IMG/VR virus record: IMGVR_UViG_3300027806_000564
Span: 1 to 24,133 of that record
Origin: a virus
Direction: 5' to 3' (one strand)
DNA: 24,133 nucleotides
Part shown: positions 2,310 to 23,611 of the stretch, piece by piece
How positions within the stretch are numbered: the first letter of the stretch is position 1
Layout of the letters: every line of letters begins with the position of its first letter
Program-made: the position numbers and the translations under genes
The notes under the pieces: generated by a model
What the model saw: the letters and a program-made list of their open reading frames with translations, nothing else
Databases searched by the model: none
What the model was told of the DNA's origin: nothing

Positions 2310-2724
2310 ATTAATAGAATCACCGGAAAAGATGTGGGAGCTGTTTGTAGCTTATAAAGAAAGCGCAAAAAGTAAACCTATATTAGTGCAGGACTTTGTA
2401 GGTAAAGACGGGATGGAAGTTAGAAGAGAAAGGGAAAGGCCTCTTACAATGGAAGGGTTTGAATGTTATGTTTGGGATCAGGAAATAGTAGAAGGTGTTG
2501 AGCAATATTTTAGCAATAGAGATGGAAGATATGCAGATTTTGTAGGTATCTGTTCACGTATTAGAAGGGAAATAAGGCAGGATCAGATAAGCGGTGGCAT
2601 GGCAGGTATTTACAATCCATCCATAACACAAAGATTGAATGGGTTAGTAGAAAAGACCGATGCAAAGACAGAAGGCATCCAAAAGATAACAATTGAGCGC
2701 GTCACAAAAAATACAGATCAATAA
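2296..2724 (+). CDS. terS: Terminase small subunit (DNA-packaging gp3-like)
   Basis: This 142-residue protein lies directly before the large terminase and overlaps it by 32 bases, the usual place for the small subunit, which recognises phage DNA and regulates packaging. The N-terminal half has the pattern of gp3-like packaging proteins: ESPEKMWELFVAYK near residue 8, PLTMEGFECYVW near 49, and a mid region with YADFVGICSRIRREIRQDQ. The later GIYNPSITQRLNGL segment is also typical. The 3' end contains the ribosome-binding region of the next gene. The family call is from memory of sequence patterns; the positional evidence is strong. Confidence 0.8.
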   Translation: MGRYKLIESPEKMWELFVAYKESAKSKPILVQDFVGKDGMEVRRERERPLTMEGFECYVWDQEIVEGVEQYFSNRDGRYADFVGICSRIRREIRQDQISGGMAGIYNPSITQRLNGLVEKTDAKTEGIQKITIERVTKNTDQ

Positions 2725-3871
2725 CGAACATTCCGGGCAGCTAAAGGTACTTTCCGAAGCTAAGAGATTTAATGTATTGGATTGTGGTAGAAGGTGGGGG
2801 AAGTCTGCTTTGGCGGTTAACCTACTTTGTGAGCCGGCATTAGATGGCCATCCGGTCGCCTATTTTGCTCCATTTTATAAACTACTCGAAGGGACGTATA
2901 AAGAGTTATATTCGGTCTTAAATACAGTTACAATAAAAAAGCATGAGAATCAGTTTATTGAGCTTGTAACAGGCGGATCGATTGAGTTCTGGTCACTTGA
3001 GAATCCATTGGCAGGCCGTTCACGAAAATACAAGGTGGCCATAATAGATGAAGCGGCATTTAATCGAAACCTATGGCAGTCATGGACAGAGGCAATAAGG
3101 CCGACATTAACCGACCTGAAAGGTAGCGCGTGGTTTATGTCAACGCCAAAGGGTAAGAATGATTTCTACAAGCTATGGATGCGAGGACAGACGGGTGAGC
3201 CGGACTGGATGTCATGGCAGATGCCGACCATTACAAACCCGTTTATCGATCCGGCAGAGATAGAAGCAGCAAGGCGCGACCTTCCTGATCTTGCATTTAA
3301 ACAGGAATACCTTGCAGAGTTTAATGATAATGTCGCTAATCCTTTCGGATTAGATTACATCCGGATATGTACGGGAAGAATATCCAATGAGCCGGCCGTC
3401 TGCTTCGGGATTGACCTTGCAAAGTCGTTTGACTGGACCGTCATAATAGGGTTAGATAAGTTCGGCAATGTTTGTCATTTTGATAGGTTTCAAAGGCCCT
3501 GGAACGAGACGAAAGAGATTATCAGGCGATTGCCGAGGGGAGCGATAAAGATAGATAGTACAGGTGTAGGCGATCCGATAACGGAGGACATCCAACGTGA
3601 GCGTGGTGATGTGCATTCTTTTAAGTACACATCGACATCAAAACAACAACTTATGGAAGGGTTAGCGGCTGCCATCCATCAAAGGCGCGTGATCTTCCCT
3701 GATGGGGTTATAAAGTCCGAATTAGAAAGCTTTGAATATCAAATGACAGGAACGGGTGTAAAATATACTGCACCTCCCGGACTGCATGATGATTGCGTAA
3801 ATGCTTTGGCATTGGCGTGGGCCATGTACGTACAGGACAACGGGGGGCATGTTAAATATTCTTTTTTATGA
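2693..3871 (+). CDS. terL: Terminase large subunit (packaging ATPase/nuclease)
   Basis: The 392-residue motor protein translocates DNA into the prohead and cuts it. Walker A is GRRWGKS (residues 32-38) and Walker B is AIIDEA, with D119-E120 as Mg/ATP catalytic acids. STPKG (150-154) fits the coupling motif. The C-terminal RNase H-fold nuclease shows D241 (GIDLAK), D288 (KIDSTG) and D366/D367 (HDDCVNAL), the expected acidic metal-binding set. The best start is a TTG at 2693, 32 bases inside the small subunit; no ATG fits before the ATPase. Length is slightly short for the family but all motifs are present. It overlaps the next gene by ATGA. Confidence 0.95.
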   Translation: MSASQKIQINNEHSGQLKVLSEAKRFNVLDCGRRWGKSALAVNLLCEPALDGHPVAYFAPFYKLLEGTYKELYSVLNTVTIKKHENQFIELVTGGSIEFWSLENPLAGRSRKYKVAIIDEAAFNRNLWQSWTEAIRPTLTDLKGSAWFMSTPKGKNDFYKLWMRGQTGEPDWMSWQMPTITNPFIDPAEIEAARRDLPDLAFKQEYLAEFNDNVANPFGLDYIRICTGRISNEPAVCFGIDLAKSFDWTVIIGLDKFGNVCHFDRFQRPWNETKEIIRRLPRGAIKIDSTGVGDPITEDIQRERGDVHSFKYTSTSKQQLMEGLAAAIHQRRVIFPDGVIKSELESFEYQMTGTGVKYTAPPGLHDDCVNALALAWAMYVQDNGGHVKYSFL

Positions 3872-4497
3872 ACTGGAACAAAATCACAGTAAAGCAATAT
3901 CAGGATATCTTCCCGATAATTAATGATGACAATTTATCCGATCTTGATAAGCTTGTTAAAATTATCTGCATACTTACCGGATACACGGAAGACTACATCG
4001 ACTCATGGCCGATTGATAAGCTGAATGAGTATAGGCATTTATTTGAGTTTGACCACAAAAAAGAAGCTCGCAAGAGGGTTAAAGTCAATGGCAGATATTA
4101 CCGATTTAACTGGGAGATCAATAAATTAAAGGCGGCAAGATACATTGAGGCCAAAACATTCACGGGTGAAGGACTATTTCAAAACTTACATAAGATTATG
4201 GCATCATGCGTAATCCCGCAAAGGAAGATCGCATTCTTTTACTTTGATAAAAAGTACAATGCAGCGGACCACGACAAATATGCCACTGATTTATTAGATG
4301 CCCCTTTCCCATTTGTTTATAATGCTTGCGTTTTTTTTTGTCAATTATTAATGAAGTGGATCGACGTTACCCTGTCTTATTCGGGGGAACTCAAAGGGAA
4401 GATGACGGAGAGCCAGATAGCAGCATTGAAAGAGTCTTTGCAAGGTATTACGGATGGATTTATAGTACGACCCTTGTCGCAGATCTCGAGCGAATAA
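3868..4497 (+). CDS. Tail assembly chaperone-like protein, zero-frame product
   Basis: The 209-residue product has a helical N-terminus (ITVKQYQDIFPI, then a region spaced like tail-chaperone proteins) and contains a run of nine Ts at 4331-4339, read as Val-Phe-Phe-Cys. Past this run the frame goes on for about 52 residues, while the -1 frame, reached by slipping on T TTT TTT, encodes a longer and more protein-like C-terminus up to 4613. This layout is that of lambda gpG/gpGT: a short product and a frameshifted long product upstream of the tape measure gene. It directly follows terL (ATGA overlap). An error in the T-run would also join the frames, but the short form would still be a normal phage arrangement. 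Confidence 0.6.
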   Translation: MNWNKITVKQYQDIFPIINDDNLSDLDKLVKIICILTGYTEDYIDSWPIDKLNEYRHLFEFDHKKEARKRVKVNGRYYRFNWEINKLKAARYIEAKTFTGEGLFQNLHKIMASCVIPQRKIAFFYFDKKYNAADHDKYATDLLDAPFPFVYNACVFFCQLLMKWIDVTLSYSGELKGKMTESQIAALKESLQGITDGFIVRPLSQISSE

Positions 4498-4613
4498 CAT
4501 TAGATCATGCATTTGAGTTACCTATTTATCAATATTTGAACGGACTGGCATATTGCAAAATGAAAGAGAAATTAGAACGCAAACAATTGGAAGATATGCA
4601 AAAAAAGAAGTAG
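4338..4613 (+). CDS. C-terminal extension of tail chaperone reached by -1 frameshift
   Basis: This 91-residue segment in the -1 frame relative to the preceding gene begins after codon Phe157 of that gene and would give a 248-residue fusion. The features YYGWIYSTTLVADLERIT, then LPIYQYLNGLAYCKMKEKL, are typical of tail-chaperone C-terminal domains, which recruit the tape measure protein and tube. A TTG at 4326 could start it alone, but there is no good initiation context and it lies inside the T-run region, so translational fusion is preferred. A strong terminator follows within 40 bases. A conserved stimulatory RNA structure is not clear: a weak imperfect hairpin (4366-4390) lies about 27 bases downstream, farther than usual. 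Confidence 0.6.
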   Translation: MSIINEVDRRYPVLFGGTQREDDGEPDSSIERVFARYYGWIYSTTLVADLERITLDHAFELPIYQYLNGLAYCKMKEKLERKQLEDMQKKK

Positions 4614-4650: not shown

Positions 4651-4686
4651 CCCCTGATCTTTTTAGATTAGGGGTTTTTTGTTTTT
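4651..4686 (+). terminator. Rho-independent terminator after packaging/chaperone genes
   Basis: A ten-base-pair stem (4651-4660 with 4665-4674, one G-U pair) encloses a four-base TTTT loop and is followed by a T-rich tract. It separates the packaging block from the tail block. Confidence 0.9.
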
Positions 4687-4703: not shown

Positions 4704-5381
4704 ATGGCATTATCAATAGCACAAGCGCAAGCAGCATTCCTCAAAGATGGTGGTCCTGTGGGGGGGACTTTAAGGGGGCAGCCTAATGAGCTATCTGATA
4801 TTGAAAAAATGATGTCGGACTATATTACTAAGTTTTTAAATGCTGCCTCCGATAATCTAAATAAGAATCAATCGGTTACAACAGGTAACCTGTTGGATAG
4901 TTTAAACTTTAATATTGAATCTACAAAGGCCGGATATACCATAAACTTTACGGCCTTAGATTATTATAAGTTTGTAGATAAAGGGGTTAGGGGTGCAGGT
5001 GCAAGCCTTAAGAATAACACATCGCCCTATAAATTCAAATTCATAACACCTTCAAAAAGTCATATAGCGGCTATTGAAAAGTGGCTAACTAAAAATAATT
5101 TAACGGCTACGGCAAGGGATGTGAACAAATACGGAAGAACGGGAAGGGAGCGTAAAGCGACTGACCCGGCCGAAGCTAAGCAGTCATTGGCGTATATTAT
5201 TGCCAAAAGTATAAAGCGCAACGGATTGAAAGCGACTAACTTCTGGACCGATGCCTTCGATGATACATTTAAAGATTTCGGAGTAAAAATGAGTGAGGCA
5301 TTAGGTAAAACAATAACTGTTAACCTGCAGCAAATGGCCTCAGAAGTTCAAAGTAAAAAAGGATCAAAAATACCACGATAA
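4704..5381 (+). CDS. HK97 gp10-like head-tail/tail completion protein
   Basis: The 225-residue protein follows the gp10-like layout. An N-terminal helical segment is followed by [20 protein letters not shown], which resembles the 'GxLxxSI' entry, and by [12 protein letters not shown], the counterpart of the 'YAxyvExGT' strand of gp10 proteins. The C-terminal half is helical and basic ([16 protein letters not shown], then [12 protein letters not shown]). Gp10-like proteins sit at the head-tail joint or end of the tail tube. It starts after the terminator and its stop overlaps the next start by one base, so it is the first gene of the tail operon. The inserted basic loop near residue 150 is longer than I expect for the family. 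Confidence 0.65.
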
Positions 5382-6499
5382 TGGGAATAACAATACATCA
5401 ATCGCCTACGGGATTCGCATCAGCGCATGAAGAGGTGTGGCACGTAGTCGAAAGTACAGATAAGAACATCACCGGCTTTCAATATGTCTATGACATTTAC
5501 AAGGGTGCTGAATTACTGACAAGGGTAAAAAATTCACCTTTGGGCGCAAGTAAGTTGGGTGTATTGGATGTCGGCAATATTGTCAGGTCGGCATTGGATT
5601 CTTATAACTTCCCTGCTTTCAATCTGGCTGCATTTACGAACGAGGTGACATTAGGGGCGGATGTATTCTTTACTGACTATGATGTAAGATATGGCCAGGT
5701 GAGTGGTGTGGGTGAGGTTAGCGGTAACTTGGCATCCGGAACATATCGCGTGTATAATAATTACAAGAGGTCAAAATGGGATAATGCGACAAGTGAAATA
5801 TCGGCAGATGCATTCTTAACTAACAGACCATCGGGAAGCACATACTATCCCGGTGAGCCGATTGTTGCAAGCGTTTATGTGGGCAGTGAAGACAGGTCGA
5901 GATTGCTTACTACAAGCTACGGCAATGCCGGCAAATATTATAACACATCGGGCCAATACAATCTGGGATATACTTTTGGGATATTGCCTGTGAGCGGTAC
6001 TATTACATTTGATTTGCAGGATGAAAATGATGATGTAATTGATACGATTACATTTAGGCAAAAGTGCGCTAAATACGAAACGCATACTTTGATTTTCTTG
6101 AATGCTTATGGTGCTTATGATTCCTTTACGTTCGTACATGGTAAGCTCATGATGTCAAATGAGAAAAAGAAGTTCGAGCAGATGCGCTGGGGATTGTCGG
6201 GTAATAGTATGGTTGAAAAGTCAGGATCGGTTTATAATGAAAGCATGAAGACGTATGCGGTTAAATACAAAGAGCGCATGATGCTGACAAGCGATATTTT
6301 AAGCACAGGCGAATATAACTGGTTATCGGAACTTATCAATAGTCCGCAAGTCTATTACTATTCTACGGAGAATGCTGAATATTACCCGGTACAGATTACA
6401 GATACTGATTATGAGTTTAAAGATGATAAGATCAATAAGACAGATACATTAAGCGTGACCATTGAATTTAGCACGCCACAAAACACACAATACCGATGA
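5381..6499 (+). CDS. Tail structural protein (unassigned, tail operon)
   Basis: The 372-residue protein is beta-rich with frequent Gly, Tyr and Asn, without membrane segments or coiled coil. It looks like a virion structural protein: repeated aromatic strands such as SGTYRVYNNYKRSKW and GTITFDLQDENDDVID, and a compact C-terminal domain (residues 260-372) ending TLSVTIEFSTPQNTQYR. It is joined to both neighbours by overlaps (one base upstream, ATGA downstream), so it belongs with the tail operon. In tailed phages a gene at this position could form the distal tail or tail tip. I do not recognise a named family; the tail role is inferred from context. Confidence 0.6.
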   Translation: MGITIHQSPTGFASAHEEVWHVVESTDKNITGFQYVYDIYKGAELLTRVKNSPLGASKLGVLDVGNIVRSALDSYNFPAFNLAAFTNEVTLGADVFFTDYDVRYGQVSGVGEVSGNLASGTYRVYNNYKRSKWDNATSEISADAFLTNRPSGSTYYPGEPIVASVYVGSEDRSRLLTTSYGNAGKYYNTSGQYNLGYTFGILPVSGTITFDLQDENDDVIDTITFRQKCAKYETHTLIFLNAYGAYDSFTFVHGKLMMSNEKKKFEQMRWGLSGNSMVEKSGSVYNESMKTYAVKYKERMMLTSDILSTGEYNWLSELINSPQVYYYSTENAEYYPVQITDTDYEFKDDKINKTDTLSVTIEFSTPQNTQYR

Positions 6500-8565
6500 T
6501 CTACGAACTTTATCTGAATGGTGAAAAGGCAGACGTACGTCAAGACTTAGGCGTTCAGTTGAGCTTTAATATCGATGACATTAATAAGTTCGGATCACGC
6601 GATACATCATTTAGCAAGACGATTGTTTTACCCGGAACAGCAAACAATAATAAGCTGCTCGGCTTTGTGGCTGACATGGGCAGCTTTAATACATTCGACG
6701 CAGGTGCGGCAAATATAGGCGCTAACTTTAATGTTGCCCAAACGACAAAGGCGGAATTAAGGGGTAACGGTTTATTATTGATTAAAGGCGTTTTTAGGTT
6801 ATTAAGCATCGTAAAGGATAAAGATATTATTGAATATGAGTGTGCGGTATTTGGTGAGCTTGGTGGGTTTATTGCATCCATTGGCAATGGTAAGCTTGAG
6901 GAATTAGATTTCAGCGATTATGACCATGTTTATAATAGAGCAGCTATTGTTGGTAGCTGGGATACAATAAACGGATCGGGATATTATTACCCATTGATTG
7001 ATTACGGGACGCATTCTTCTGCTGACATTTACGGCATTGTAAAGGCGAAAGTCGATTATAATTATTTGACATTTAGGCCGGCTCTGTACGCTAAAGAGTA
7101 CATCGATAAGATATTTTCCGCAGGTGGTTATACCTATGAAAGTACATTCTTTGATAGTGCGTTTTTTAAAAAGCTGATCATTCCTAATAATCAAAAAGGG
7201 ATATTTAAAAAAGAAGGCTATAATGTGCAGGGTTTGCGGACAACAGCGGTTACAACAACTGCCCGCAATGTCTTATTATCTTATGAGAATACTACATTAT
7301 CAGCCGACTGGCTTACCAATGCCGGCAAGAATCAGTTTACTTATATCGGCTCAACGGCACAGACATTTGATTATAGCTTTGTAGGTACTTTTACACTCAC
7401 ATCGGTTACTGATGCTGGCTGGTCGTTTGAGATAAGGAAGAATGGCGTGGTGGTTTACACACAAGGTATGTCAGAGATTAACGGGCAGCAGTTCGTATAT
7501 GAAGAAACGGGAACCATATCCGTAGTCACCAATGATGTTATTACAATACGGCTTATTTATCCGGAGGTTGAGGCGGTCAGCGTAATATATGATGAGCTAA
7601 CATTTAGAATATTTAATTCATCTAACCCTTGGGTAGAAATTACTTTAAATGGTGCCATTGAGATTTCTCAAACCATACCGAAGGGCATTATGCAAAAAGA
7701 CTTCTTTACATGGATTATAAAGATGTTTAATTTGTACGTAACAGAAGATAAAGAAAAATCTAATCACCTGATCATTGAGCCGTACATTGATTACTACGGG
7801 ACTGACACAATAGACTGGACATATAAGGTGGCAAGGGATAAGGCATGGCAGATAAAACCAATGGGCATGCTGAATGGTAGATTCTTTGAATATAGGTTTA
7901 AAGAGGATAGCGACTTTTATAATGATGGTTATAAAAAGAAATACAATCAGTCGTATGGTGACAGGTTAGAAGATACGGCCTTTCAATTCGCAAAGGATAA
8001 GCAGACCATTGACGTGGGTTTTTCACCTTCTCCTTTGGTACAATATAACGGGACTGATAAAGTTTTGCCGGCCATTTACAAACGAAGTAAAGGAAATTCA
8101 GTCGATCAAGAAGAGCTTGTAGATAGCAATATCCGCATATTAATGGCCAAAAAGGTGAGCTGTTCAAGTTGGAATATAAGGAATGGTAAAACGCCAACTT
8201 CACCGAATTTAGGCGCATCGCTTATTGTTTACGGATATGCCGGCCACTTTGATGACCCTATTAACCCAACAAAGGATATCAACTTCGGGGCAGCGTCTGA
8301 GATATACTTCGATCCTAATAGCTATACATCAAATAATTTATTTAATGATTATTGGAGTGAGTACATATCCGAGATAGCCGATAAAGATAGTAAGATATTG
8401 AGCTGCTTTGTACATTTAACACCTTTAGATATTGCCCAGTTGGATTTCAGCAAAGCGGTCATGATTGACGGCATAAGATTTAGGTTAAATAAGATTGAGG
8501 ACTTTGATTACACGAATAATGAACTTGTAAAGGTTGAACTTTTAAAAATAATAAATAATGGCTAA
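6496..8565 (+). CDS. Large tail protein, probable tail tip/baseplate hub component
   Basis: This 689-residue protein starts with IYELYLNGEKADVRQDLG and has a Ser/Thr-rich TSFSKTIVLPGTANNNKLLG segment at residues 38-57, a start I associate with large tail proteins of Bacteroidetes phages. It is beta-rich. A middle region (about 270-380) looks like a separate Ig-like or carbohydrate-binding-like insertion with alternating Thr/Val strands. The C-terminal part begins near AISQTIPKGIMQKDFFTWIIKMF and resembles hub-like domains with repeated DYY/W motifs. It lies immediately upstream of the tape measure gene with an 8-base overlap. Function by context: tail tip or baseplate. Enzymatic motifs were not seen. 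Confidence 0.6.
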   Translation: MIYELYLNGEKADVRQDLGVQLSFNIDDINKFGSRDTSFSKTIVLPGTANNNKLLGFVADMGSFNTFDAGAANIGANFNVAQTTKAELRGNGLLLIKGVFRLLSIVKDKDIIEYECAVFGELGGFIASIGNGKLEELDFSDYDHVYNRAAIVGSWDTINGSGYYYPLIDYGTHSSADIYGIVKAKVDYNYLTFRPALYAKEYIDKIFSAGGYTYESTFFDSAFFKKLIIPNNQKGIFKKEGYNVQGLRTTAVTTTARNVLLSYENTTLSADWLTNAGKNQFTYIGSTAQTFDYSFVGTFTLTSVTDAGWSFEIRKNGVVVYTQGMSEINGQQFVYEETGTISVVTNDVITIRLIYPEVEAVSVIYDELTFRIFNSSNPWVEITLNGAIEISQTIPKGIMQKDFFTWIIKMFNLYVTEDKEKSNHLIIEPYIDYYGTDTIDWTYKVARDKAWQIKPMGMLNGRFFEYRFKEDSDFYNDGYKKKYNQSYGDRLEDTAFQFAKDKQTIDVGFSPSPLVQYNGTDKVLPAIYKRSKGNSVDQEELVDSNIRILMAKKVSCSSWNIRNGKTPTSPNLGASLIVYGYAGHFDDPINPTKDINFGAASEIYFDPNSYTSNNLFNDYWSEYISEIADKDSKILSCFVHLTPLDIAQLDFSKAVMIDGIRFRLNKIEDFDYTNNELVKVELLKIINNG

Positions 8566-10576
8566 CACAGTTATAGGGGCAACGGTTGAAGTAGATGTTC
8601 AGTCGGTCGGTAACATGAAGCAACAATTAAGGGCGGCTACGGCTGATCTTGTTGCTATGAATGAAAAGTTTGGGAGTACATCAAAGGAAGCTATTGCAGC
8701 AGCGAAGCGAGTGGCAGAATTAAAAGATGCCATAGGGGATGCCAAATCGCTTGCGGATGCCTTTAATCCGGATGCAAGGTTTAAAGCATTAGGGCAAACG
8801 CTCGGAGCTGTGGCCGGTGGGTTTTCAGCAGTACAAGGGGCAATGGTATTGCTGGGGAATGAAAGTGAAGACCTGCAGAAAAGTCTATTAAAAGTACAGG
8901 CGGCCTTAGCTATATCGCAAGGACTTGAGCAGCTTGGAGATTTAGGCCAGGCTTTTAAGAATTTAAAGGCCGTAGCGGTTAACGCTTTAAATGGTATTAA
9001 GGCGGCCATCGGATCAACAGGGATAGGGTTGTTGGTTGTTGCTTTGGGTACCATTGTGGCCTACTGGGATGAAATAAAAGCGGCGGTAAGCGGCGTAAGT
9101 GAAGAGCAACAAAAGCTTAATGCTGATGCAGCTGCAAAATTAAAAACAGCGCAAAAAGAGCTTGAGGTTTTAGGTTTACAGGAAAATAGTTTAAAGCTTC
9201 AGGGCAAAAGCGAAAGGGAGATTCTTAATTTAAAGATTAAGGCAACTGATGAAGTTATAGCCGCGACGGAAGCTCAGATAAAGCAAAATGAAATAACGCT
9301 AAAAGCTCAGATAGAAGCAGCGCAAAGGAATAAAGATATCCTGCAAGGTATATTAACGTTTATATCAGCGCCGCTTGCTTCATTATTAAAGGGCATTGAT
9401 TTAATAGGTGATGCTGTTGGTAAAAACTTTGATTTATACAATAAATTCTATGGCGGCATATCTTCATTTGTTTTTGACCCTAAAGAGATTGAGGCCGAAG
9501 GTAAAAAGTCACTTGAAGAACAAGAGAAAGCATTGTCACAATTGCGTAATCAAAGGGATGGCTTTGAAATACAAAGGAAAGCTATTGATAAAAAGAATTC
9601 TGATGACAGGGCAAAGAAAAATGAAGATGATGCTAAAAAAGAAGCCGAAAAGCAGGCGGCCGCTGCAAAGGTTATAGATGATGCAAGACGCGCTAAATTA
9701 ACTGAAAGACAAAGGGAGGAGGAAGATGCGATACGTGCCTTTAATGAAAGAAAAAAGACTTTGGAGCTTGCCGGCAAAACGGACTTGACAGGTATTGAAG
9801 AACAAAAGGAGATCGAGCTAAAAGCTATTAGGGATAAATATAAAGCGATACAAGACGAAGCAGATAAAAAAGCACAAGAGGCGAAATTAGCAAAAGAAAA
9901 TGAGGAAGCCGAAAGATTGAAAGCGGCCGATGAGAATACGCTCAAAATGGTTGCGGAACAAAATCAGGCTTTGCTAAATGCTGAAATTGAATTACAGAAT
10001 CAAAGATTTAATGCAGCACAGGCAGGGTTAGATCTGTTGGCATCATTAGCTGGCCGCAATGAGAAAATCGCAAACATAATATTTGCAGTACAGAAAGGCT
10101 TAGAGATTGCTCGAATAATAGCAGATACGGCGCGCGGCATTGTAGCTGCAAAAGCAGGACTTGCGGCTGTGCCTCCCTTTATAGGGGTAGCTCCTAACCC
10201 GGCGTTCGTACTTGCAGCGGCATCGGCTGCCAAACAGATTGCGGGGTTAAAGATTGCGGCTGCCGTTGGTATTGCACAGATAGCAGGGGCATCAATAGCC
10301 AAATTTAAAGGGGGTGGCGGTGCAGGTGCGGTAGGCGGTGGCGGTGTCGAGGTGTCCGGTGGTGGCGCAGCTCCTATGTCAGCTATGCCATCAGCATCGG
10401 TAACCGCTCAGGCATTAAACGCACAAGCGATTAATAATTTAAACAATCAGGGGATAAGAGCTTATGTGTTAAATAGTGACATTCAAAATACAGAACAAAG
10501 AAACGCGTATTTAGAAAGAAGCTCATCCGTTGGCGGTATGGATGCATTTATAAGAAGAGTTACAGGTAGACCTTAA
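8558..10576 (+). CDS. Tape measure protein
   Basis: The 672-residue protein has the classic tape-measure build. It has an N-terminal helical segment, hydrophobic helices at about residues 85-105 and 140-170 (AAIGSTGIGLLVVALGTIVA), then long charged coiled-coil stretches rich in Ala/Lys/Glu (about 180-490). An Ala-rich hydrophobic helix zone (about 490-585) and a Gly-rich linker (GGGGAGAVGGGG) precede the C-terminus. It sets tail length and helps DNA ejection. At about 1.5 angstrom per residue, its length would suit a tail of roughly 100 nm, which is an estimate. It follows the large tail protein with a small overlap, and reading frames inside it on the other strand are shadows. Confidence 0.85.
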   Translation: MANTVIGATVEVDVQSVGNMKQQLRAATADLVAMNEKFGSTSKEAIAAAKRVAELKDAIGDAKSLADAFNPDARFKALGQTLGAVAGGFSAVQGAMVLLGNESEDLQKSLLKVQAALAISQGLEQLGDLGQAFKNLKAVAVNALNGIKAAIGSTGIGLLVVALGTIVAYWDEIKAAVSGVSEEQQKLNADAAAKLKTAQKELEVLGLQENSLKLQGKSEREILNLKIKATDEVIAATEAQIKQNEITLKAQIEAAQRNKDILQGILTFISAPLASLLKGIDLIGDAVGKNFDLYNKFYGGISSFVFDPKEIEAEGKKSLEEQEKALSQLRNQRDGFEIQRKAIDKKNSDDRAKKNEDDAKKEAEKQAAAAKVIDDARRAKLTERQREEEDAIRAFNERKKTLELAGKTDLTGIEEQKEIELKAIRDKYKAIQDEADKKAQEAKLAKENEEAERLKAADENTLKMVAEQNQALLNAEIELQNQRFNAAQAGLDLLASLAGRNEKIANIIFAVQKGLEIARIIADTARGIVAAKAGLAAVPPFIGVAPNPAFVLAAASAAKQIAGLKIAAAVGIAQIAGASIAKFKGGGGAGAVGGGGVEVSGGGAAPMSAMPSASVTAQALNAQAINNLNNQGIRAYVLNSDIQNTEQRNAYLERSSSVGGMDAFIRRVTGRP

Positions 10577-11617: not shown

Positions 11618-11650
11618 GTTTGGTTTTTCATTGTTTGGTTAAGTGGACAT

Positions 11651-11684
11651 CCCCGGCTGTTTCTACGGCTGGGGTTTCTTTTTG
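11651..11684 (+). terminator. Rho-independent terminator after protease gene
   Basis: A nine-base-pair stem (11651-11659 with 11666-11674, two G-U pairs) with a six-base loop is followed by TTTCTTTTT. It lies in the 79-base gap between the protease and the next ATG, and overlaps the optional GTG start at 11643, which argues against that start. Confidence 0.8.
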
Positions 11685-11696
11685 GTATATATAAAC

Positions 11697-11975
11697 ATGA
11701 GCGCGAATCTGCAGCCGATACCATTAGGATTGATAGCGATACAGCCATATTTGGACTTTGTTGCTGAAAAGGGTTTTTCGCCTATTGAGCCGGGAGATAC
11801 TACTTATCAAAATGATGCATTCGCTAACCCTCCTTCGGTGTTTATTGATGGGTTATTGCTTACTTATGTTCCGGTATTGGATAAAAGATACATAAGCTTT
11901 GATTGGTCGACGCGGACCATAACGTTTAATAATGGCACGTTAATACAAGGTGAAACAGTCCAGATATTTTTATAA
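11697..11975 (+). CDS. Small beta-domain protein, paralogue of C-terminus of gene at 18204
   Basis: The 92-residue protein starts at ATG 11697. A GTG at 11643 keeps the frame but would read through a terminator hairpin, so it was not used. From residue 19 to 92 it aligns with the last 75 residues of the gene at 18204: GDTxYQ, VFIDGxLxTYV, DxRYI, TxTITxNxG and GExxxIxL are shared. It is beta-rich and acidic with no membrane segment. It stands between the protease and a glycosyltransferase gene. A small decoration, fibre-like or binding role is possible; I do not know the function. The duplication is seen directly in the sequence. Confidence 0.7.
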   Translation: MSANLQPIPLGLIAIQPYLDFVAEKGFSPIEPGDTTYQNDAFANPPSVFIDGLLLTYVPVLDKRYISFDWSTRTITFNNGTLIQGETVQIFL

Positions 11976-11989
11976 CCAAACAAACAAAC

Positions 11990-12997
11990 ATGAAAATTTT
12001 AGTATTGACGCAAAAGTTCAGCGGATGCGGTTACCATCGGCTTATGCTTCCCGTTTCATTTATGCCGAAAGAATATGGCAGAATTACAGATACCATAACG
12101 GAAGAGGAATTAGCGGAAAAGAAATATGATATTGTATTTGTGAATCGGGTATGGGAAAAGGATGACCTGATTGATCTACGCAAAAAATACGGTTTTAAGT
12201 TGGTGGTTGATGTAGATGATTATTGGATACTTAATCATGACCATTTGATGTTTGATTCATTTAATGCTACTGGGTTCGCATCAAAGCTGATAAGATATAT
12301 GAGGGAGGCGGATATGGTCACATGTACGCATTATAGATTAGCGGAGGCGGTTGCGGTCCATAATCATAATGTCATAGTGGTACCTAATTCGATACCTTAT
12401 GGACAAGGGCAGTTCAATGGTGAACGTGTAGCTACTGATGCCGTTAAGATATTCTGGGCGGGCGGCATTACGCATGATCAGGATTTGAAGATACTTGAAG
12501 CGCCTATGAAAAGAGTTGAAGGTAATGTACAGATGGTTTTGGGTGGCTATGCCGATTCAAACGAAACGGAAAGGTATTATTGGGGGCGCATGGCTAATTA
12601 TTTCACAGCGGATAAGCGGTTACCATATACTTTGATGCGTGGCAAAGAGGTGTTTGAATATTATGAGCTTTTCAAATATGCCGACATCATGCTGATACCT
12701 TTGGTTAAAAATAACTTTAATAAGTACAAGTCAAATATCAAAATATTGGAGGCAGCCGGTAAGGCGGTGCCGGTGGTGGTTAGCGCGGTCCATCCTTACT
12801 TAGACTTCCCAGATGATGTGGTCAATTACGTATATGATAGGGTCGACTGGAATAAGCATATTAACCGACTTGTAAATGATAAGGGGTTACGGGATGAACA
12901 GGGGGCAAAGCTGCATGAATATTGTTGTAAATATTACAACTTTCACGAAATAAACGAAACGAGGCGAAAGTCTTTTGAGGCATTGGTTTCAAAGTAA
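11990..12997 (+). CDS. GT4-like glycosyltransferase (GT-B fold)
   Basis: The 335-residue protein has the two Rossmann domains of GT-B enzymes. The N-terminus (MKILVLTQKFSGCGYHRLML) has a GGxG-like sugar-binding start, KLVVDVDDYWIL follows at residue 64, and VVPNSIPYGQGQ marks the domain link. The C-terminal domain starts at IFWAGGITHDQDLKIL, and NKYKSNIKILEAAGKAVPVVVS near residue 245 is the donor-binding EX7E-type region, with the first Glu apparently replaced within a lysine-rich loop. It transfers a nucleotide-activated sugar, acceptor unknown. It is next to capsid genes, unlike host LPS clusters, which hints at virion glycosylation. A short CAAA repeat precedes the start. Confidence 0.85.
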   Translation: MKILVLTQKFSGCGYHRLMLPVSFMPKEYGRITDTITEEELAEKKYDIVFVNRVWEKDDLIDLRKKYGFKLVVDVDDYWILNHDHLMFDSFNATGFASKLIRYMREADMVTCTHYRLAEAVAVHNHNVIVVPNSIPYGQGQFNGERVATDAVKIFWAGGITHDQDLKILEAPMKRVEGNVQMVLGGYADSNETERYYWGRMANYFTADKRLPYTLMRGKEVFEYYELFKYADIMLIPLVKNNFNKYKSNIKILEAAGKAVPVVVSAVHPYLDFPDDVVNYVYDRVDWNKHINRLVNDKGLRDEQGAKLHEYCCKYYNFHEINETRRKSFEALVSK

Positions 12998-15238: not shown

Positions 15239-15625
15239 ATGATAAAGTTTACCAAAGGCACTACGGATACAATTTATCTGACATTAAAGGAGAAGCAGAC
15301 CATATTGGATGCTAACTTCCTCTGTGTTTTTCAATCGCGATCAACGAACGAGAAGGTAAAGTTTGTACTTGTAAATTCAGCCGATCAAAGTTTATATAAA
15401 GATCGGTTTAATGAGTTTGACATTGTTGTTAATACTTACTTTGCAACAAAAGAGGAAGGGTGGTTTACATATACGATATATGAGCAGGTCAGCTCTTCAA
15501 ATTTAGTGGAAGCGAATGCCGGCGCAATAGTGGAGACGGGCTTAATGTTTTTATCAGATGGTCAGGATGTAACCACAACTAAATACGATAATCCAACAAC
15601 ATTTAAAGTATATGATGCGACATAG
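15239..15625 (+). CDS. Small structural-type protein of unknown function
   Basis: The 128-residue protein is beta-rich, starting MIKFTKGTTDTIYLTLKEKQ, with central LYKDRFNEFDIVVNTYF and a closing EEGWFTYTIYEQVSSSNLVE plus VETGLMFLSDGQDV. This type of short protein often occurs between tube and portal genes of Bacteroidetes phages in my memory, but I do not know its function. It lies after a terminator and overlaps the portal gene by 14 bases, so it is the first gene of that operon. No catalytic motif, coiled coil or membrane segment is visible. A virion role is inferred from position. Confidence 0.65.
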   Translation: MIKFTKGTTDTIYLTLKEKQTILDANFLCVFQSRSTNEKVKFVLVNSADQSLYKDRFNEFDIVVNTYFATKEEGWFTYTIYEQVSSSNLVEANAGAIVETGLMFLSDGQDVTTTKYDNPTTFKVYDAT

Positions 15626-17561
15626 TGTATCTTTTATAAAGTTTGCCGATGTGAAAGTTCCGGTAATGAAGGAAGTGCCTAATAAGGGATGGGTATTATT
15701 TGGAGAAGATAATAAGTTCCCAAATATGCTTTTAAATATGTTTAATAAGAGCAGTAAGCATAATGGCATCGTGTTGGGTAAGGTGAACTATATTACCGGC
15801 AAAGGATTTGATCATGTATTGCAAGCGAATGCTTATGAGAATTGCAATGAAATACTTAAAAAAGCTTGTTTGGATATTGAAGTGTTTGGAGGGTGTTATT
15901 TGGAGATTCAGTACAATGCGGCTGGCACGATTGGCGCATTTTACCACATCCCTTATCATAAGGTAAGATCAAGCAAGGATAATACTCAATTCTATGTTAA
16001 GGATTGGGACAGCTATAAAAAGAATGATGAGCCGAAGGTGTTCGCCGCTTATAATCCTAAATTGGATGTTAAATTACTACGCAATCAGACTCAAATACTT
16101 TACTACAAAGAATACAGACCGGGTGTTGAGACATATTCATATCCGGGATACATGGGTGCGCTTAATGCTATTCAGACGGATATTGAGATAAGTAAATACC
16201 ATTTAAGCACCATCACGAATGGGATGTTTGCATCAAAGATGATCAGTTTCTTTGAGGGTATCCCTACGGAAGAGGAGAAGCGCGAGATTGAAAAGGGTTT
16301 CAAAAGTAAGTTTACGGGGAGTGAGAATGCAGGTAATATCGTTTTGAACTTTGGTAAAGACCCTGCGAAGCGGCCACAGTTGGATGATCTTAGCAGTACG
16401 GAATTAGATAAGCATTTCGACATACTTTCTAAAAGCGTACAGACTGAGATATTTTGCGGTCATCAGGTGGTCAGTCCGATGTTGTTCGGTATTCGTGTTG
16501 AGGGGCAATTAGGCGGTCGTAGCGAGATTAGGGAGGCTTATGAGATCATGAAGTCAACCTATGTAAACGATAAGCAGCAGGCGTTAGAATTGCTATTTAA
16601 AGAGATTACAGGTCAGGATCATAAGATAATACCTGTTGAGCCGATAGGATTTGAATTTAGTGAACAGACTTTATTACAGATTGCTCCTAAAAAATGGCTA
16701 TTAGAAAAGATCGGAATTGATTCGAGCTTATACCCTGAGATTGCACAGCCTGACGGCGTTGCACCACAATCGCAACCGATGGCGGTTAATGAGAATTTAA
16801 AGAATTTGAGCGGTCGGCAATGGCAAAGCTTAACACGTATTATCAGGAAGTTTGAGAAGGGTGAGATCAGTCAGGATCAAGCTAAATTGTTATTAAAGAG
16901 CAGTCTGGGGTTGAATGATGACGAAGTGAATACTATGCTTGCGATTGATAATGGTATGGAGTTCAGCAGTCATGAGAATGATGAATTATTACTGGCTGAA
17001 TTTTCAAAATGTGGTGAGCCGAAAAATGAATATCTGATTATAAAGCAGTCCAAATTTGTATTTGCTAAAGATCAGCAATTTGCCGACGTCACTCAAATAG
17101 AAACCAATGTTCTGGACTTATTAAGGAAAGATAAAAAAATAACGCCTGAGGTTATTGCTGAGACATTAGATTTGGAGGTTGACAGTGTAAAAGAGATTTT
17201 AAAGAGATTATCCAGCGAAGGTCGTATATCTATAAAGACTACAAAGGTAGGCCAGGATAATGTGATTGAGCGTACTTTGACAGAGCCATTAAAGACACAG
17301 ACTGATAAGAAGCCTGAGACTTTAAACTTTAAGATTCTTTATTCTTATGAAGGACCAAAAGATGACAGGAATAGAGATTTTTGCGCAAGACTTTTGGAGA
17401 TGGATAAGTTATGGTCAAGATCTGAAATTGAAACCATGTCGAGAAGGATGGGGTATAGCGTATGGGATAGGCGTGGCGGATGGTGGACCATGCCGGATGG
17501 GGACCGTTCAAAGTCATGCCGTCATGATTGGGTTAGCAATATCGTAATGAAGAAAAAATAA
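15612..17561 (+). CDS. Portal protein with winged-helix and C-terminal Cys/His domain
   Basis: The 649-residue protein is a portal. The N-terminal 400 residues have the family pattern GWVLFGEDNKFPNMLLNMF, NKSSKHNGIVLGKVNYITGKG, EVFGGCYLEIQYN and a stem region ending GHQVVSPMLFGIRVEGQLGG. It forms the ring through which DNA enters the capsid. After residue 480 there are additions: a winged-helix-like region at about 490-555 (ETNVLDLLRKDKKITPEVIA, then VDSVKEILKRLSSEGRISIK) and a closing domain at about 570-649 with YEGPKDDRNRDFC, MGYSVWDRRGGWW, and C636-R-H638-D-W. The latter pattern I link to phage minor head proteins. C591, C636 and H638 could bind metal. Confidence 0.85.
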   Translation: MMRHSVSFIKFADVKVPVMKEVPNKGWVLFGEDNKFPNMLLNMFNKSSKHNGIVLGKVNYITGKGFDHVLQANAYENCNEILKKACLDIEVFGGCYLEIQYNAAGTIGAFYHIPYHKVRSSKDNTQFYVKDWDSYKKNDEPKVFAAYNPKLDVKLLRNQTQILYYKEYRPGVETYSYPGYMGALNAIQTDIEISKYHLSTITNGMFASKMISFFEGIPTEEEKREIEKGFKSKFTGSENAGNIVLNFGKDPAKRPQLDDLSSTELDKHFDILSKSVQTEIFCGHQVVSPMLFGIRVEGQLGGRSEIREAYEIMKSTYVNDKQQALELLFKEITGQDHKIIPVEPIGFEFSEQTLLQIAPKKWLLEKIGIDSSLYPEIAQPDGVAPQSQPMAVNENLKNLSGRQWQSLTRIIRKFEKGEISQDQAKLLLKSSLGLNDDEVNTMLAIDNGMEFSSHENDELLLAEFSKCGEPKNEYLIIKQSKFVFAKDQQFADVTQIETNVLDLLRKDKKITPEVIAETLDLEVDSVKEILKRLSSEGRISIKTTKVGQDNVIERTLTEPLKTQTDKKPETLNFKILYSYEGPKDDRNRDFCARLLEMDKLWSRSEIETMSRRMGYSVWDRRGGWWTMPDGDRSKSCRHDWVSNIVMKKK

Positions 17562-18149: not shown

Positions 18150-18289
18150 ATGGACAATATACTAACAAAATTCAAAAGCTATTAAAAGCTTATTTAAAGA
18201 AACATGACGCTCAATCAAATAATAAAAAAGCTGATCGAGATAGCATCCGGCCACAAAATGGTAAGGACTGCAAAGCACGTAAAAGCTGA
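18146..18289 (+). CDS. Possible 47-residue small ORF overlapping the next gene
   Basis: An ATG at 18146 overlaps the preceding stop as ATGA and opens a 47-residue frame ending TGA at 18289. It begins MNGQYTNKIQKLLKAYLKKH, a plausible short basic helix. The rest overlaps the gene starting at 18204 by 86 bases and is Asn/Lys-rich, so only the first 20 residues look coding. It could be a real short gene, or chance open frame in the 54-base gap. Low confidence. Confidence 0.2.
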   Translation: MNGQYTNKIQKLLKAYLKKHDAQSNNKKADRDSIRPQNGKDCKARKS

Positions 18290-18911
18290 AGACTTTATTG
18301 TCTTTGATTATAAGGATGTGGAATATCCGGCCGTATGGTACACGCTTAACACGTCATCCATTACCGGAAAGGAAAAGACTTACCAAATTTTGGTAACTAT
18401 TGCTGATATTCATCATGTAGAAAATATGGATGAATTAGAGATGCAGTCAGATTGTGAGCAGATAGGTCATGATCTACTTGCTCAGGTAGGGTGGAATTTG
18501 CAGGAATGGGTAATGGAAAGGTCATTTAACTTTGAATATTTTAGGCAAGGTCAAGAAGATATACTGGCCGGGGTGACATTTGAATTAAGTTTAAAGTTGC
18601 CGATTATTTACAATGCCTGTCAGGTGCCATCTGATTATGAGTTACCTAATGGCAATTTCGTATATATTAATACCAATAGATTTATGACAATTGCGGATTT
18701 CATAGTAGGTGCCGGTCAGCCGATGGAGCAGGGGGATACTGAATATCAAGATAATCAGTTAACGATTGCTCCTTTTGTGTTTATCGATGGGATATTACAG
18801 ACGTATGTGGTGAGATCGGATAGAAGGTATATTACGCATAATGCAACAACAAAAACAATAACAATAAATGGCGGTGTCAATGAAGGCGAAAATATTAGGA
18901 TTCTTTTGTAG
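18204..18911 (+). CDS. Tail terminator/completion-like protein fused to beta domain
   Basis: The 235-residue protein has two parts. Residues 1-150 form an alpha/beta domain with VEYPAVWYTLNTSSITG, KEKTYQILVTIADIHHVENM and DELEMQSDCEQIGHDLLAQV, resembling the tail terminator/completion proteins that cap siphovirus tails; its place after portal and connector supports this. Residues 161-235 are a beta domain similar to the separate protein at 11697 (GDTEYQ, VFIDGILQTYV, DRRYIT, TKTITINGG). An ATG at 18684 could start this domain alone. Its last 44 bases overlap the chosen start of the fibre gene. The fusion looks complete, with no frameshift. Confidence 0.65.
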   Translation: MTLNQIIKKLIEIASGHKMVRTAKHVKAEDFIVFDYKDVEYPAVWYTLNTSSITGKEKTYQILVTIADIHHVENMDELEMQSDCEQIGHDLLAQVGWNLQEWVMERSFNFEYFRQGQEDILAGVTFELSLKLPIIYNACQVPSDYELPNGNFVYINTNRFMTIADFIVGAGQPMEQGDTEYQDNQLTIAPFVFIDGILQTYVVRSDRRYITHNATTKTITINGGVNEGENIRILL

Positions 18912-23357: not shown

Positions 23358-23611
23358 CAGACGAAGCTAACATACATACTGAATTCATACCGGTAGATAA
23401 TGAGCTGTTGCAGATTATCGAGGTTGAGTGTATGTTATTGGCTACCATTGCGGATATATGTGATGCTGAATATCGGACTTATGATCAAGAGATCGAGGAC
23501 ATGAATGTAATAAAGGGGAATGCTTACAAGGTCATATTTGCGGCTCAAAAGAAACTATTAAAATTCATTAAAGACTATGAACAAGGGAATACCGATAATA
23601 CGAAAGTTTGA
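23354..23611 (+). CDS. Small acidic protein of unknown function
   Basis: The 85-residue protein is acidic and largely helical (NELLQIIEVECMLLATIADI, then VIFAAQKKLLKFIKDYEQ), without signal peptide or clear membrane helix. It overlaps the phosphoesterase gene by ATGA and the lysozyme gene by 35 bases, so it is co-expressed with lysis genes. I do not recognise it; a lysis regulator or endolysin partner is possible but not supported by a motif. Confidence 0.55.
   Translation: MTDEANIHTEFIPVDNELLQIIEVECMLLATIADICDAEYRTYDQEIEDMNVIKGNAYKVIFAAQKKLLKFIKDYEQGNTDNTKV

Follow-up and report, generated by a model that had tools for sequence, protein, structure and literature searches.

The window, that is the whole stretch of 24,133 nucleotides that was analysed, carries directly after its terminase gene a locus with two overlapping open frames (Table 1). 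The ATG of frame 0 overlaps the terminase stop codon (ATGA), and the gene order is terminase, chaperone-like gene, 225-aa gene, 372-aa gene, 689-aa gene and tape measure. An earlier note had described a frame opened at 3868 that runs through nine T's and a -1 frame that continues for 91 residues, and checks of sequence and translation bore out its coordinates (T-run at 4331-4339; fusion length 157 + 91 = 248 aa; frame-0 product 209 aa). Frame-0 codons at the run are GTT (4330) TTT TTT TGT, and the heptamer T_TTT_TTT (4332-4338) is thus in phase for a -1 slip. As the -1 frame is open from 4323 to 4613 and the stop preceding it occupies 4320-4322, the junction is confined close to the run. The -1-frame C-terminal domain can be produced only via a frame change, and over the frame-0 tail the short and long products differ in sequence. 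The terminator-like hairpin, a strong one, and its T6 (4651-4674) sit within an apparent single late operon; a comparable hairpin lies 3′ of the gene in L022 (3359-3380), and the scan found none in L014.

Table 1. Features at and around the nine-T run, in positions of the window.
Feature	Position	Strand	Basis or remark
Terminase large subunit, directly upstream	2693..3871	+	phrog_2, E 1.3e-39
Frame-0 ORF, short product, 209 aa, G-like	3868..4497	+	Conserved in 16 diverse relatives
N-terminal domain common to both products, 157 codons	3868..4338	+	Confident predicted fold in single-ORF homologue
Run of nine T's, frame-change site	4331..4339	+	Exactly nine T in 174/174 frameshift loci
In-phase heptamer T_TTT_TTT	4332..4338	+	Frame-0 codons GTT TTT TTT
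-1-frame C-terminal domain, 91 codons + stop, T-like	4338..4613	+	N and C halves fused in one frame in L058, L076, L077, L088
Dual-coded overlap, frame-0 tail of 52 codons	4339..4497	+	Third-position substitutions suppressed
Terminator-like hairpin, 10 pairs, then T6, just 3′ of gene	4651..4674	+	Hairpin scan
Next gene downstream, 225 aa	4704..5381	+	phrog_29822
689-aa protein	6496..8565	+	L088 homologue, 38% identity
Tape measure protein (probable)	8558..10576	+	phrog_24676, E 1.5e-8

Elsewhere in the window, the proteins encoded at 11643-11975 and 18204-18911 (C-terminal third) have a 73-residue module in common at 47% identity, which suggests that a small structural domain may have been reused. 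The portal protein (15612-17561) has, at residues 490-550, a match to DNA-binding domains of the winged-helix type (HTH_24, E 3.6e-4), which would be unusual in a portal. Inspection by eye also picked out, among the packaging and structural genes, one acyltransferase-like gene of the hexapeptide-repeat type and two genes resembling glycosyltransferases (1166-2309, 11990-12997).

The 24-kb window has no other T-run of seven or more, against an expectation of 5.2 such runs (0.6 of at least nine) under a Markov model. Among relatives with the frameshift arrangement that could be analysed, obtained from IMG/VR-based and wider searches (two contigs counted twice), 174/174 showed exactly nine T's, with both frames open and the extension in the -1 frame. 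These loci are drawn from many separate metagenomes, take in the lineage of the cultured phages P12024S and P12024L, and comprise 39 representatives below 85% C-domain identity. Each half of the gene has relatives in IMG/VR, and the close ones (54-86% identity) retain the run, its phase and both open frames. Two codon registers were found: that of the window, [GC]TT TTT TTT T[GA]N, at 95 of the 174 loci, and GGT/AGT/GCT TTT TTT TTR at 79/174, a very divergent subfamily reached through the metagenome-assembled genome contig L117. The heptamer that had been proposed as the slip site lies in phase, inside the ORF overlap, in the window and at every one of the 174 loci. Its wobble T's are fixed, both Phe codons being TTT in 16/16 diverged representatives; Phe codons elsewhere in the same domain divide into 65 TTT and 35 TTC. 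One apparent exception without a T-run, L078, was left out, as it matches L056 save for an internal gap of approximately 31 codons across the junction. The deletion that removes the nine-T junction there (L078, 1502-2178) may stem from misassembly or mark a defective phage.

Both frames of the overlap appear to be under constraint. In pairs of relatives, third-position substitutions of the -1 frame occurred at 0.24 per codon in the overlap. The rate was 0.39 once frame 0 had ended, and the N domain, coded in one frame only, had 0.44. When codons of the -1-frame protein were resampled, frame 0 remained open for as long as observed (≥52 codons in the window) with a probability of 0.026 in the window; the corresponding values at 16 further loci were 0.004-0.34. 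The frame-0 tail is open for at least 44 codons in the frameshift loci (shorter, approximately 25 codons, in the P12024S type, described below) and is of similar length and character across lineages. The pattern shows the overlap to be dual-coding. Aligning related phages, the check that the earlier note had set, thus found both overlap and T-run conserved, and its proposal of a programmed -1 frame change is upheld by the 174 loci and by the dual coding.

Not all homologues have this arrangement: 28 loci carry the N and C halves in one continuous frame, without nine T's at the junction, and in 16 of these the counterpart of frame 0 reaches a stop within 0-27 codons. Four loci (L143-L146) were excluded from the single-ORF count because they are matches to the C domain only and also carry the nine T's, and the occurrence of T_TTT_TTT in single-ORF L100 and L102 was taken as chance, being absent from L096 and L105. 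Single-frame relatives had been named as evidence that would count against programmed frameshifting; they do exist, but they possess no T-run at all, and in one trio the single frame is apparently a secondary loss. In an unrooted maximum-likelihood tree of 34 rows, two changes of label (frameshift vs single-ORF) are needed, and L058, L076 and L077, all single-ORF, fall inside a group of 12 rows (support 99/97). Given its position inside a frameshifting clade, the trio reads as having lost the frameshift secondarily, keeping what would be the fused form only. Taken together with the many distant relatives that have no frameshift, this nested clade indicates that the short form is not universally needed.

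The same relatives bear on a reading of the T-run as a sequencing error, or as the mark of an indel that recently disrupted a gene for 248 aa; the earlier note had itself called the run a possible sequencing or indel site. Homopolymers of such length are prone to error, and continuous-frame relatives do exist, but those relatives are without any T-run, the frame-0 tail is conserved and dual-coded, and the run has the same length at 174 loci from many datasets and in the GenBank-deposited P12024S. This reading was rejected for the family and is improbable in the extreme. Very improbable, too, is a -1 ORF that forms a separate gene with its own start, expressed by translational coupling, despite a TTG (4326) that opens the ORF in a mechanical ORF list and the annotation of P12024S_39 on its own: N and C are one protein in the single-ORF relatives, the -1 domain of the window is without an ATG until near its end, and the conserved element at the junction is the T-run, not a start codon. 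The one protein that N and C halves make up in the single-ORF relatives has a confidently predicted fold (mean pLDDT 89 for L058); the 209-aa form of the window was predicted at 77.

A cultured and distant homologue was recovered when the family profile matched P12024S_38 of the Nonlabens (Persicivirga) phage P12024S (JQ823122; E 1.9e-7). As in the window, this gene directly follows the terminase gene and has nine T's (23578-23586) in the same codon register, which join P12024S_38 to the -1 frame containing P12024S_39; P12024L matches at 99%. Unlike the window gene, to which identity is approximately 20%, the two are annotated as separate hypothetical genes (phrog_32199 and phrog_38404), with the frameshift unrecorded. 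P12024S_38 and P12024S_39 are probably a single frameshifted gene (locus L108, 23136-23830), the annotated _39 starting within the -1 domain. Neighbours of the gene in P12024S have PHROG families in common with the window (phrog_29822 and phrog_35281, with phrog_38559 through L088), which supports a common ancestry of the module. The P12024S counterpart of the gene at 4704..5381 has a weak match to tail completion/Neck1. By extension from P12024S, hosts of the family are probably Bacteroidota.

As to the identity of the protein, searches of Pfam and PHROG with the short product, with the -1 ORF and with the family profile found no match, sequence and structure searches gave no PDB match or PDB fold for the gene products, and single halves and two single-ORF forms had no matches when searched against phage records. 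The family was not found in bacterial genomes, where relatives of the terminase, with the exception of L117, had no detectable counterpart gene downstream. Structure searches returned uncharacterised phage proteins, including a 175-aa P12024S protein (a length that fits P12024S_38), together with marginal fold matches to two proteins named tail assembly chaperone (E 0.045 and 0.33); these, at weak scores, were the sole tail-function names among the fold matches.

Gene layout is more informative. Phage lambda gpG and gpGT are, like the products proposed here, a short and a -1-extended protein that have an N-terminal domain in common and whose coding region precedes that of the tape measure protein (PMC5009743), and G/GT frameshifting of the lambda type is widespread in long-tailed phages, with a product ratio of about 30:1 in lambda (PMC5009743). 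The window gene has no detectable sequence kinship to the lambda pair, however, it has nine T's in place of the lambda slip site, and its relatives include fused-only forms. The earlier note had placed it upstream of the tape measure gene, and this is correct with respect to 8558-10576, although, unlike in lambda, the two are not adjacent, having three genes between them. In the divergent homologue L088 the chaperone-like gene does immediately precede a tape measure gene (phrog_9483, E 1.8e-12), with a homologue of the 689-aa protein (6496..8565) shortly before it. The tail-chaperone assignment made in that note stands in part: layout, synteny and the L088 homologue speak for it, while family matches are lacking and fold similarity is marginal. 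With the G/GT layout, the position in the tail module and the L088 homologue upstream of the tape measure gene, a tail-chaperone role is likely. It is unlikely, by comparison, that the programmed frameshift serves some other tail or neck assembly factor. Such a factor would account for the want of a recognised family or solved fold and for a gene directly after the terminase and apart from the tape measure, both in the window and in P12024S, but it fits poorly with the L088 homologue, with a short-plus-extended architecture typical of G/GT, and with weak fold matches that name tail assembly chaperones only.

The efficiency of the frame change and the level at which the slip takes place (ribosome or polymerase) are inferred, and the sequence is compatible with slippage at either level. 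No stable RNA stimulator was evident downstream of the junction, where folding z-scores across 16 loci were mostly near 0 (the only score below -2 was that of L062, in one of its four folding windows), and no purine-rich SD-like element was seen by eye within 40 nt upstream. Bacterial genomes give evidence of selection against transcriptional slippage from nine-base runs onwards in many species, Thermus dnaX uses a run of nine, and in Shigella mxiE an inserted U joins two ORFs (PMC1088944); for the polymerase of bacteria a run of seven T's is the minimum, and insertions are the favoured outcome (PMC6260861). Both mxiE and dnaX resemble the window in having a homopolymer run in the overlap, and mxiE in joining two ORFs by one inserted nucleotide, but their proteins are unrelated to the window gene, which additionally has the in-phase ribosomal heptamer. 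Among ribosomal slip sites in E. coli, U_UUU_UUC belongs to the efficient Y-ending class (PMC4066793). In favour of the ribosome, measurements at two tail-chaperone sites gave 6-7% frameshifting (PMC3711429).

Programmed transcriptional slippage, in which RNA polymerase would add one U at the run in some transcripts and ordinary translation would then yield the long protein, is accordingly a serious contender, though not the favoured one. The run is exactly nine T's in both codon registers despite the different placement of the heptamer, a length from which many bacteria show evident slippage (PMC1088944) and above the seven that bacterial RNA polymerase requires (PMC6260861); insertion is the outcome in mxiE too; and the downstream RNA stimulator is absent. 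Moreover, the eighth T is invariant, although in the register of the window a C there would alter neither protein and would leave U_UUU_UUC. The odds of such invariance are approximately 0.035 (corrected for codon usage, 16 representatives, before shared ancestry), and as a sign of slippage by polymerase it is only suggestive. Nor was the exactness of the nine accepted as proof, since each edge T may equally be constrained by the protein sequence in one or other frame. A ribosomal heptamer is in phase at every locus, and the reviews consulted treat tail-chaperone frameshifts of phages as ribosomal. If the frame change is programmed, its main route is somewhat more likely to be -1 slippage of the ribosome at T_TTT_TTT, a slight lean that owes itself to precedent, and the remaining, smaller share of the probability falls to the addition of one U by RNA polymerase. 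It can be entertained, tentatively, that a large and mostly uncultured family of tailed phages, probably of Bacteroidota, makes two chaperones via transcriptional slippage on exactly nine T's in place of ribosomal frameshifting, and that at least one clade has since become fused-only.

Whatever the level of the slip, one gene with a programmed -1 frame change and both a short and a long product is strongly supported by comparison of the loci. The two proteins would have their first 157 residues in common. Expression would mostly end in frame 0 and yield the short form of 209 aa; now and then a shift back by a single base at TTTTTTTTT would yield the long form of 248 aa, whose C-terminal domain is a different one and is conserved. 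If the lambda pair gpG/gpGT is a guide, the tape measure protein would be coated by the shared domain, tail tube subunits would be recruited by the extra domain of the long form, and neither product would be part of the virion. The explanation as a whole, a programmed frame change that yields two tail-chaperone-like products, is highly probable.

Tail chaperone genes are well-known users of programmed frameshifting, and the system is not of a new kind. The apparent novelty lies in a chaperone-like family whose run of nine T's is invariant in two codon registers, has gone unannotated in cultured phages and was given up by a nested clade. The literature searched, most subscription papers aside, contained no account of a phage tail chaperone made by transcriptional slippage, which is weak evidence. 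Tail-chaperone frameshifting is a textbook example of a system where the proportion of two products matters, and the family allows a single uniform signal to be compared in great depth, with more than 170 loci, two codon registers and the cultured phages P12024S and P12024L. For tail genes of phages it sets ribosomal cleanly against transcriptional slippage, and the phages that apparently lack the short form make the need for two products testable.
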